Notes under the pieces: generated by a model | What the model was told of the DNA's origin: nothing | The model's database searches: none | What the model saw: the letters and a program-made list of their open reading frames with translations, nothing else | Position numbers and translations under genes: made by a program | In this document: one piece after another, positions 6,995-52,765 of the stretch | Position numbering within the stretch: position 1 is the stretch's first letter | Layout: every line of letters begins with the position of its first letter | From: Bacillus sp. (in: firmicutes) | GTDB taxonomy: Bacteria; Bacillota; Bacilli; Bacillales; Cytobacillaceae | Direction of reading: 5' to 3' | Length of the DNA stretch: 57,840 nucleotides | NCBI GenBank assembly: GCA_031177865.1 | Contig: JAPSKD010000006.1 | Span: forward strand, 1 to 57,840

Positions 6995-8416
6995 GTGTCA
7001 CAAGAATACGATTTAGTCATTCTTGGCGGTGGAACAGGCGGTTATGTGGCTGCCATTCGTGCCTCTCAGCTTGGCTTAAAAACAGCAATAGTTGAAAAAG
7101 GAAAACTTGGAGGAACATGTCTTCATAAAGGATGTATCCCAAGTAAGGCTCTGCTTAGAAGTGCTGAGGTTTATGCGACAGCTAAGCATAGCGAAGATTT
7201 CGGTGTGATTACAAGTGATGTCTCCTATAACTTTGGAAAAGTACAGGAAAGAAAAAATAAAATCATTGAACAACTTCATAAAGGTGTTCAACATCTCATG
7301 AAGCAAGGGAAAATCGATGTTTATGAAGGGCTTGGCAGAATATTAGGTCCATCAATTTTTTCACCAATGCCTGGAACGATTTCGGTTGAAATGAATAATG
7401 GCGAAGAAAATGAAATGCTCATTCCGAAAAATGTTGTTATTGCGACAGGTTCGAGACCAAGAACACTTCCTGGACTAGAAATTGATGGAGAATTAGTCAT
7501 TACCTCTGACGAAGCACTAGAGCTAACGAACTTACCTTCTTCTATCATTATTGTCGGAGGCGGTGTTATTGGAATTGAATGGGCTTCTATGTTATCTGAT
7601 TTCGGGGTCGAAGTCACGGTTATTGAATATGCAGATCGCATTATTCCAACTGAAGACCAAGAAATCTCCAAAGAAATGCAGCGCCTCATGAAGAAAAAGG
7701 GAATTAAACTTGTAACAGGAGCAAAGGTCCTTCCTGAAACACTGGTAAAAGGTGATGGTGTAACCATTTCTGCTGAAGTGAAGTCTGGCATGAAAGAATT
7801 TAAGGCTGAAAAACTTCTCGTATCAGTAGGGCGACAAGCAAATGTTGAAGGAATTGGATTGGAAAATACAGAAATCCAGGTTGAAAAAGGTTTTATCGTT
7901 ACCAATGAATTCTACCAAACAAAGGAATCTCATATTTACGCAATTGGTGATGTGATTGGCGGTCTGCAGTTAGCACATGTTGCCTCCCATGAAGGTATAA
8001 TTGCAGTTGAACATATTGCTAGAAAAGATCCTTCCGAGCTTAATTACAATCTAGTTTCTAGATGTATATATAGCAATCCTGAGGTTTCGAGTGTTGGGAT
8101 TACCGAGGAACAGGCAAAAGAAAAGGGCCATAAAGTAAAAGTGGGCAAATTTTCATTCCGAGCAATCGGGAAGGCTCTCGTGTTTGGAGAATCCGATGGT
8201 TTTGTCAAGATTGTCGCTGATGAAGATACCAATGATATTCTAGGGGTGCATATGATTGGTCCGCATGTGACTGATATGATAACAGAGGCAGGATTGGCAA
8301 TGGTATTGGATGCAACACCATGGGAAATTGCTCATACGATTCATCCACATCCTACGCTTTCTGAGGCAATTGGAGAAGCTGCACTAGCAGTCGATGGTAG
8401 AGCAATCCATTCTTAA
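6995..8416 (+). CDS. lpdV: Dihydrolipoyl dehydrogenase of BKD complex (E3)
   Basis: FAD- and NAD-dependent E3 subunit that reoxidises the dihydrolipoyl groups of BkdB. 473 residues. It has the N-terminal FAD motif GGGTGGYVAA, the redox disulfide C42/C47 in GGTCLHKGCIPSK, a second NAD Rossmann motif IIVGGGVIGIEWA, and the C-terminal dimer-interface catalytic segment HTIHPHPTLSEA. It starts with GTG after GGGGAGG. It is the dedicated E3 of this operon, between buk and the E1 genes. Confidence 0.96.
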   Translation: MSQEYDLVILGGGTGGYVAAIRASQLGLKTAIVEKGKLGGTCLHKGCIPSKALLRSAEVYATAKHSEDFGVITSDVSYNFGKVQERKNKIIEQLHKGVQHLMKQGKIDVYEGLGRILGPSIFSPMPGTISVEMNNGEENEMLIPKNVVIATGSRPRTLPGLEIDGELVITSDEALELTNLPSSIIIVGGGVIGIEWASMLSDFGVEVTVIEYADRIIPTEDQEISKEMQRLMKKKGIKLVTGAKVLPETLVKGDGVTISAEVKSGMKEFKAEKLLVSVGRQANVEGIGLENTEIQVEKGFIVTNEFYQTKESHIYAIGDVIGGLQLAHVASHEGIIAVEHIARKDPSELNYNLVSRCIYSNPEVSSVGITEEQAKEKGHKVKVGKFSFRAIGKALVFGESDGFVKIVADEDTNDILGVHMIGPHVTDMITEAGLAMVLDATPWEIAHTIHPHPTLSEAIGEAALAVDGRAIHS

Positions 8417-51811: not shown

Positions 51812-52765
51812 ATGGATGATTTTTTAAAAAATTTTATGCAGTTTATACTCGTCGAGAAGAGAGTGGCAAAGAATACGCTGCTGTCGTATGAACGAGATTT
51901 AAAAACATATCTTCACTACTTGAAAAATGTTGAAGCGATTGAAACATGTAATCAAGTCCAGCGGGCTCATATTATACATTTCCTTTCTTTTTTGAAGGAA
52001 CAAGGAAAATCCACGAAAACTTTGGCAAGGCACGTTGCTTCTATTCGCGCTTTTCATCAGTTTCTGTTGCGGGCACAAGTATCGAATCAGGATCCTTCTG
52101 TCCTTATTGAGCCTCCAAAGTCTGAGCGGTCAATTCCAAAGGTTTTAAGCTTAAAGGAAGTTGAAAAACTCTTAGATTTCCCTAGTGGTCAAGGGCATTT
52201 CGGTTTAAGGGACAAGGCAATGTTAGAGCTTCTTTATGCTACCGGTATTCGTGTCAGTGAACTTATTCAAATCGATGTAGCGCATGTAAATGTAACGATG
52301 GGTTTTGTCACCGTCAGCGGTAATGGTAATAAAGAGCGAATCATACCAATTGGAAAAACAGCAGCTGAGGCACTAAAGGATTACATTGATAAAGGCAGAA
52401 AAAATTTTGTTTCAAAAAATGAAAATCACTCAGTGAATTTTCAACAGGAAAATCACTCAGTGAATTTTCTAGAGGAAAATCACTCTGATCGTGCATTATT
52501 TTTAAACCATCAAGGAAAAAGATTAACACGTCAAGGATTTTGGAAAATCTTAAAAAAAATGGCTCAAGAGGCTGGTATTGAGAGTGAGTTAACACCGAAC
52601 ACACTTCGACATTCGTTTGCGACACACCTATTGGAAAACGGTGCCGATTTAAAAGCAGTCCAAGAATTGCTTGGACATGCTAATATCTCAACAACACAAA
52701 TATATACCCAAGTAACCAAGACGAGGTTAAAGGACGTCTATAGCAAATACCATCCAAGAGCTTAA
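51812..52765 (+). CDS. xerD: Tyrosine recombinase XerD (variant)
   Basis: Chromosome-dimer resolution recombinase, partner of the XerC-type CodV at dif. 317 residues from ATG at 51812 (GGGGAG upstream), about 20 more than usual. N-terminal SAM-like domain; catalytic Arg in [11 protein letters not shown] (about 147), Lys in [10 protein letters not shown] (about 173), LRHSF (R266), LGHANIST, and Tyr in QIYTQVT. Two oddities: box II reads TPNTLRH, so Asn stands where the catalytic His is expected; and residues 204-226 are a tandem ENHSVNF repeat absent from normal XerD. Probably still XerD by locus; activity is open. Confidence 0.9.
52421..52484 (+). repeat. 27-bp tandem palindromic repeat inside xerD
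   Basis: Units start at 52421 and 52448 with a partial third at 52475. Each has the near-palindrome AAAATCACTCAGTGAATTTT, encodes ENHSVNF plus two variable residues, and keeps frame. Confidence 0.95.

Follow-up and report, generated by a model that had tools for sequence, protein, structure and literature searches.

A XerD protein with two replaced catalytic residues, a rebuilt dif site, and XerS in CodV-less Neobacillus

The xerD gene of a genome of the Neobacillus group encodes a tyrosine recombinase in which two of the six catalytic residues have been replaced (R-N-N-R-H-Y where R-K-H-R-H-Y is expected), and most members of this genus lack CodV, possess a rebuilt dif site and encode a further recombinase, XerS, directly beside it. 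Taken together, these sequence comparisons suggest that XerD may have become mainly a dif-bound, poorly cleaving protein and that XerS may do the chemistry, a reading for which we consider the case to be almost evenly balanced.

Catalytic residues of XerD and their distribution in Neobacillus

The gene lies in the window, by which we mean the whole 57,840-nt stretch of DNA that was analyzed, with fur upstream and deoB downstream. Its product scored 372.4 bits against the TIGR02225 XerD profile, over the curated cut-off of 329.6. We take index 170 of chain 1A0P to be K172 in the usual numbering of E. coli XerD. The gene and its catalytic positions are as follows.

51812..52765, + strand: xerD, 317 aa, XerD-family tyrosine recombinase (TIGR02225; Phage_integrase and SAM-like domains)
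52250..52252, + strand: Arg147, box I arginine, intact (alignment)
52322..52324, + strand: Asn171 (AAT), where E. coli XerD has its catalytic hairpin lysine (K172; index K170 in 1A0P), placed by alignment with E. coli XerD, by multiple alignment and by a table in PMC13239906
52598..52600, + strand: Asn263 (AAC), at the position of the box II histidine (E. coli XerD H244; alignment)
52607..52609, + strand: Arg266, box II arginine, intact (alignment)
52676..52678, + strand: His289, box III histidine, intact (alignment)
52703..52705, + strand: Tyr298, the nucleophile, intact (alignment)

The first of the two Lys in GKGNKER is the catalytic hairpin lysine of E. coli XerD, listed in the table under index 170 of 1A0P (PMC13239906). 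A pairwise alignment with E. coli XerD agreed on this position, and the window hairpin reads GNGNKER. The Lys three residues after Asn171 (K174) is still present and might serve in place of the missing one. This change was overlooked by the initial annotation, which had singled out box II. Its reading there, TPNTLRH with an AAC codon for Asn, was borne out at 52598-52600, and in the alignment Asn263 pairs with the His of LSPHVLRH in E. coli XerD.

Among named organisms, N. niacini strains and Neobacillus sp. DY30 are close to the window genome, and our genus sample comprised 61 Neobacillus genomes, that of the window (G000) included. XerD was found in all 61. The DNA pattern T-P-x-[TVAI]-L-R-H-[ST]-F-A likewise matched in every genome, with Asn (AAC or AAT) in six, which form a niacini group (G000, G008, G016, G017, G039, and G056), and His in the other 55. 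Because of this distribution the Asn is not a sequencing error, and an assembly error was rejected as well since the six genomes spell it with differing synonymous codons. The proposal that Asn is a genuine natural variant is thus upheld: it marks a clade in which XerD dN/dS is about 0.10, as in the sister group with K and H.

At the K172 position the 61 genomes carry K (35), N (13), T (8), S (2), A (1), R (1), and Q (1), although a two-residue hairpin deletion in seven XerD rows makes the alignment there less sure. All 26 replacements occur among the 56 genomes without CodV, 30 of which retain K172, and six genomes of the genus have no Lys anywhere in the hairpin. Compared with the genomes that encode CodV (0 of 5), this difference is not significant on raw counts (Fisher p = 0.066), because only five genomes carry CodV. 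Both K172 and H244 have been lost in four of the six Asn genomes (G000, G008, G016, and G017), and H244 only in G039 and G056. The remaining catalytic residues are invariant, the box I Arg in 61 of 61 genomes and the box II Arg, box III His, and Tyr in all 60 complete XerD rows. Outside the genus, 26 relatives were read; H244 was present in all of them and K172 in 23. Since the three exceptions, all Paenibacillus, also lack K172, its loss may be tolerated generally. The Paenibacillus proteins (L045, L048, and L063) have Thr or Ala at this position.

On a XerD tree of 60 rows, one change to Asn was needed (95/75 support). When the hairpin and the box II residue were masked the tree needed two, although Asn may still have had a single origin. 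To account for the loss of K172, on the other hand, the trees called for 8 or 9 changes, and a single clade for all losses was rejected (p-AU 3.7e-22); the hairpin Lys has been replaced several times independently in Neobacillus. Pairwise dN/dS of XerD, which rests on few pairs with some dS near saturation, was 0.101 in the Asn group and 0.104 in the CodV-less sister group with K and H, so Asn came without measurable relaxation. It was 0.120 in the hairpin-deletion group, 0.069 in the T/S group, and 0.035 in the CodV-positive trio, the last from three pairs. XerD is kept as a protein under purifying selection in all groups. The higher values in the CodV-less groups fit mild relaxation, a comparison that rests on the three CodV-positive pairs.

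A 27-bp tandem repeat in a variable loop

The window XerD is also long. Its extra residues follow a helix that ends in GRP and precede the ALFLNH strand, at the place of a short loop in E. coli XerD, and the corresponding DNA contains the following repeat.

52421..52442, + strand: first 22-nt quasi-palindromic unit (ENHSVNF), exact copy of GAAAATCACTCAGTGAATTTTC
52448..52469, + strand: second 22-nt quasi-palindromic unit (ENHSVNF), 27 bp downstream, exact copy of GAAAATCACTCAGTGAATTTTC
52475..52485, + strand: partial third copy GAAAATCACTC, likely the ancestral sequence; a homologous stretch occurs in insert-less relatives

The initial annotation had explained the length of the protein by a palindromic tandem repeat. 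The repeat is real, with two exact units at a 27-bp period, and so is the additional length (317 aa compared to 295-302 aa for the 54 intact non-Asn XerDs of Neobacillus); the palindrome, however, is imperfect, with a bulged base and a longest exact inverted run of 7 nt.

The repeat had further been likened to the palindromic coding elements of Rickettsia, which are in-frame repeats with inverted symmetry whose copies are dispersed in genes and gaps. It does share the frame and the inverted symmetry, but it is a local 27-bp tandem duplication rather than a dispersed unit. We searched for its 20-nt core. At up to 3 mismatches there was none elsewhere in the window (100 shuffles also gave 0 matches), and in the window genome at up to 2 mismatches it was found in two places, both in xerD. 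Among 60 genus genomes including that of the window, the exact core occurred elsewhere only in xerD of G039, once; four others gave single 2-mismatch hits, compared to 5 hits for a reversed control pattern. Because xerD of G015 holds AATTTTCTACAGGAAAATCACTC without duplication, the insert may represent host sequence that was duplicated locally in tandem, and its inverted symmetry would have arisen at the duplication junction. A mobile palindromic element was rejected, as the unit is not dispersed and repeat-less homologues show a stepwise local origin.

XerD lengths within the Asn group are 317 aa in G000, 308 in G039 (one unit), 308 in G017 (diverged), 306 in G008, 299 in G016, and 298 in G056. 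We rejected the possibility that Asn and insert form one package, since G056 and G016 have Asn without repeat units. Of the two features for which conservation in relatives had been considered, Asn is indeed common to six of 61 genomes while the insert varies independently of it. The closest relatives all carry Asn, with the insert present or absent; none shows His without the insert, which had been associated with an isolated mutation or an assembly error. The insert of about 20 residues is a duplication in a variable loop and distinct from the catalytic changes.

Loss of CodV, XerS, and the rebuilt dif site

To find CodV we used the product of G012 codV, which lies between trmFO-like and hslV-like genes, as the query in a tblastn-type whole-genome search of the 61 genomes. 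Orthologues were present in five: G012 itself, G022 and G028 (at least 88% identity), G052 (72%), and G048 (75-87% in two pieces). No orthologue was found in the other 56, where the best match had at most 41% identity, nor in the window genome among these (assembly 91% complete), where the best match was XerD itself at 32%. The TIGR02224 profile, applied to 12 genomes, agreed, with only G012 over the cut-off. In G048 (L225) the xerD and CodV frames are each broken in two with the pieces conserved, which looks like an assembly error.

A XerS orthologue (at least 80% identity) was present in 58 of 61 genomes. At E 1e-40 there was none in G044 (fragmented, 94% complete) or G052, and G048 had only distant matches. 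XerS of the window genome is a 362-aa protein that scored 397.4 bits against NF003462 (cut-off 267), and the catalytic motifs of XerS were intact in all 30 proteins read. Three genomes, G012, G022, and G028, hold CodV, XerD, and XerS together. Among 11 single-contig genomes, eight have xerS at 0.49-0.58 of the record, a position that would agree with the terminus provided that the records begin at the origin. Upstream of xerS in the window genome (L160 63-1487, G000:C168) there is a transposase-like ORF, identified by eye and seen in this genome only among those viewed. In G052, which has no XerS, a 304-aa XerC/D-like gene (L172 2890-3804) adjoins the classical dif.

A classical 28-bp Bacillus dif within 3 mismatches occurred in three of 61 genomes (G012, G048, and G052), all with CodV; it was not found in the window genome at this threshold. 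The rebuilt dif was located through its position beside xerS. In all 55 CodV-less genomes examined (all except G044, in which no xerS was found), the XerD arm AGTT[T/A]ACATAA lies downstream of xerS, exact in 53 and with one mismatch in two when both spellings are allowed. The window genome is one of the two, and its half-site GGTTTACATAA is on G000:C168 beside xerS. In most of the 55 genomes the arm is followed by TATTAT.

What follows on the far side of the site, bases 18-28, is unlike the CodV arm, with a mean of 8.3 of 11 mismatches compared to 7.3 for shuffled sequence, window genome included. In contrast, these bases resemble an inverted XerD arm (mean of 2.7 mismatches, shuffled 5.8), and 71% of the sites come within 3 mismatches of it, compared to 4% of shuffled ones. 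They are moderately conserved, at a mean of 1.07 bits compared to 0.59 for the next 8 bases. The inverted arm fits better at a 5-bp than at a 6-bp spacing in 51 of 55 genomes; the dif of G018 is a nearly perfect palindrome at 6 bp. As the central region of the usual dif is given as 6-8 bp in the available part of PMC5357621, the 5-bp spacing speaks against ordinary strand exchange. A palindromic-dif pattern was found at up to 3 mismatches in 13 of 61 genomes, a search that proves nothing alone because a reversed control pattern matched in 10. Neither the classical nor the rebuilt dif was found in the approximately 800 bp read beside xerS in G022 and G028, which have both CodV and XerS. At G028:C1:2854232, about 1.35 kb past xerS, there is a dif with its XerD arm cut off, as if by an insertion at dif.

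Beside dif in the same 55 genomes we observed a 33-bp palindrome, TCTCA-N6-AAGTATACTT-N7-TGAGA, with no mismatch in 50 and one in five.

L160 3243 onward (G000:C168 about 7243-7275): 33-bp palindrome of the window genome, at the matching place in 54 other genomes

From the start of the palindrome to the start of the XerD arm the distance is 39-41 bp in 51 genomes and 49-50 bp in four, and beside the classical dif of G012, G048, and G052 the palindrome is 51 bp from the XerD arm. In the class sample of 398 genomes, the exact dif-arm and core pattern matched in 23 including that of the window, compared to 7 for the reversed control. Two of the 22 others look like chance. The remaining 20 resemble dif sites and show gaps of 50-51 (11 genomes), 41 (one), and 31-32 (eight); they belong to a classical dif with a CodV-type arm, diverged in one of them (G311). 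The left arm in the closest-spaced group is often TTTCA or similar and not TCTCA. These steps of about one helical turn suggest, as far as spacing can tell, that a pair of proteins sits on the same side of the DNA.

When the 31-bp difSL was sought beside Neobacillus xerS, this palindrome was what lay near, but it also accompanies dif where no xerS is within 1.5 kb, and no sequence could be assigned to the difSL type with confidence. The idea of a XerS-specific site was given up as a firm claim: the palindrome is present in G048 and G052, which have no XerS orthologue, and in the 20 class genomes, where it stands beside dif, the 1.5-kb flanks contain no XerS-like ORF. Among the matches listed in the literature for the core AAGTATACTT there was no dif paper by title, which is weak evidence of absence.

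Possible roles of XerD and relation to known Xer systems

We infer a loss of cleavage, a hand-over to XerS, and a retained role for XerD from the residues and their distribution, the layout of dif, the loss of CodV, and XerS. CodV has disappeared from most of Neobacillus, and in place of its arm dif now carries an inverted XerD-like one, usually at a 5-bp spacing. XerD would still bind dif sequence-specifically and be competent for synapsis while being slow or unable to cleave, and dimer resolution would be carried out by XerS. XerD could then be kept for roles at the terminus that need binding, as a landing pad for a DNA translocase, in SMC unloading, or as an architectural partner of XerS. 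XerD that binds dif without much chemistry appears to be the most economical explanation because CodV is gone, XerS is intact, and the two XerD-like arms are oddly spaced.

The sections of PMC4381057 available to us describe Cre(K201A), a mutant of the equivalent lysine, as binding and synapsing normally but catalytically inactive, with no cleavage, whereas Cre(H289A) retains recombination at reduced efficiency and Flp(H305A) stalls once cleavage has occurred. Lys is therefore the more telling loss, and His to Asn alone would be weak evidence of lost activity. Altered XerD activity, as initially proposed, is plausible from the residues, and the additional replacement of K172 by Asn strengthens the case; another recombinase could plausibly compensate as well, with XerS beside dif as the candidate. 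As far as the accessible text of PMC5357621 goes, V. cholerae XerD is needed in CTXphi integration but is not catalytic. Unloading of SMC at the B. subtilis terminus depends on XerD (RipX) of that species (PMC13220808, available in part).

A bolder form of this explanation, which we offer tentatively and regard as doubtful, is that XerD is turning from a recombinase into a non-cleaving architectural protein: inverted half-sites 5 bp apart would be unfit for normal exchange, and XerD phased with the 33-bp palindrome would organize the terminus and a XerS-driven reaction. The main argument against any non-cleaving XerD is that the Arg pair, the box III His, and the Tyr are invariant, although a protein that only binds DNA might do without them.

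The same invariance, with purifying selection throughout, favors a serious rival, in which XerD was left as the only catalytic recombinase after the loss of CodV and acts as a homotetramer on a near-palindromic dif, like archaeal XerA, and XerS is a bystander or a parallel system. Asn263 together with the neighboring Lys174, or a changed hairpin, would keep enough activity. The resemblance of bases 18-28 to an inverted XerD arm in CodV-less genomes, the 6-bp palindrome of G018, and the retention of K172 in 35 of 61 genomes are all in line with this. However, most sites prefer a spacing below that of known dif sites, K172 is gone from 26 genomes with no hairpin Lys left in six, and XerS is as conserved as XerD and adjoins dif; on balance we think this explanation somewhat unlikely. 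It could also be speculated that XerS occupies the rebuilt left arm and XerD the right, a XerS-XerD heterotetramer replacing CodV-XerD with XerS performing the first or only strand exchange. The position of xerS directly beside dif in all 55 CodV-less genomes that have it, and the moderate conservation of the left arm, would agree with such a hybrid site; yet this arm is like an inverted XerD arm and, compared by eye, unlike the difSL half-sites in the available part of PMC5357621, and xerS is also beside the classical CodV dif of G012, which has CodV. We consider this improbable.

Another possibility is that Asn is a near-neutral substitution at a variable position, of no functional meaning. 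The box II His is less conserved than the Arg pair, being Tyr or Gln in some enzymes, and several Cre H289 variants keep activity, according to the same incompletely available paper (PMC4381057); unchanged dN/dS points the same way. On the other hand, P-N-[TVAI]-L-R-H-[ST]-F-A was found in one of 398 class-sampled genomes, the window's own (carriers of the His form were not counted), and the Asn lineage also changed K172 in four of its six members, which makes this explanation very improbable. The initial annotation had considered partial loss of XerD function with compensation by CodV and a mobile palindromic element in the gene. The in-frame 27-bp quasi-palindromic tandem repeat exists, but the unit is not dispersed and repeat-less homologues point to its local origin; CodV was found in only five of 61 genomes, and compensation by it is rejected for the window genome as far as its 91% complete assembly goes. 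This version is close to refuted.

Textbook accounts present XerCD-dif as almost universal among bacteria whose chromosomes are circular. In most of Neobacillus one recombinase is gone, dif has been rebuilt, and the other recombinase has repeatedly changed at catalytic residues. Such a natural series allows one to ask which functions XerD has other than cutting (e.g., SMC unloading) and in what way one Xer system gives way to another. If XerD has indeed become architectural, these genomes would be natural intermediates between Xer systems with two recombinases and those with one. The conserved palindrome, phased with dif and shared with other genera of the class, is a terminus element that still lacks an explanation and lends itself to direct tests. 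A literature search returned nothing combining Neobacillus, recombinase, and Xer, and the titles and abstracts on XerS, dif, and Bacillus included none on a CodV-less Bacillaceae genus.

Compared to XerD/RipX and CodV acting at dif in B. subtilis (XerCD in E. coli), Neobacillus has a XerD that scores as the XerD equivalog, the same fur-xerD-deoB neighborhood, and a dif that keeps the XerD arm AGTTTACATAA. It differs in the absence of CodV from 56 of 61 genomes, in the lost CodV arm, and, in the window, in the replaced catalytic Lys and His. Archaeal XerA/dif, with a single Xer recombinase, likewise pairs one XerD-like enzyme with a near-palindromic site, but its catalytic set is R-K-H-R-[H/W]-Y (PMC5357621, available in part) whereas the window XerD lacks K and H and the Neobacillus spacing is mostly 5 bp. 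In streptococci and lactococci, XerS is a 356-aa protein whose gene is adjacent to the 31-bp difSL, according to the same partial source (PMC5357621). The Neobacillus XerS-family protein of 362 aa is similarly encoded immediately beside a dif-type site, but there XerD persists, in 61 of 61 genomes, and its half-site is conserved. A parallel in gene content to G012, G022, and G028 is Lactobacillus helveticus DPC 4571, which has XerC, XerD, and XerS and is described in the accessible text of PMC3025954 as a possible intermediate with both systems. Most of Neobacillus differs from it in representing the next step, with CodV lost and XerD kept.
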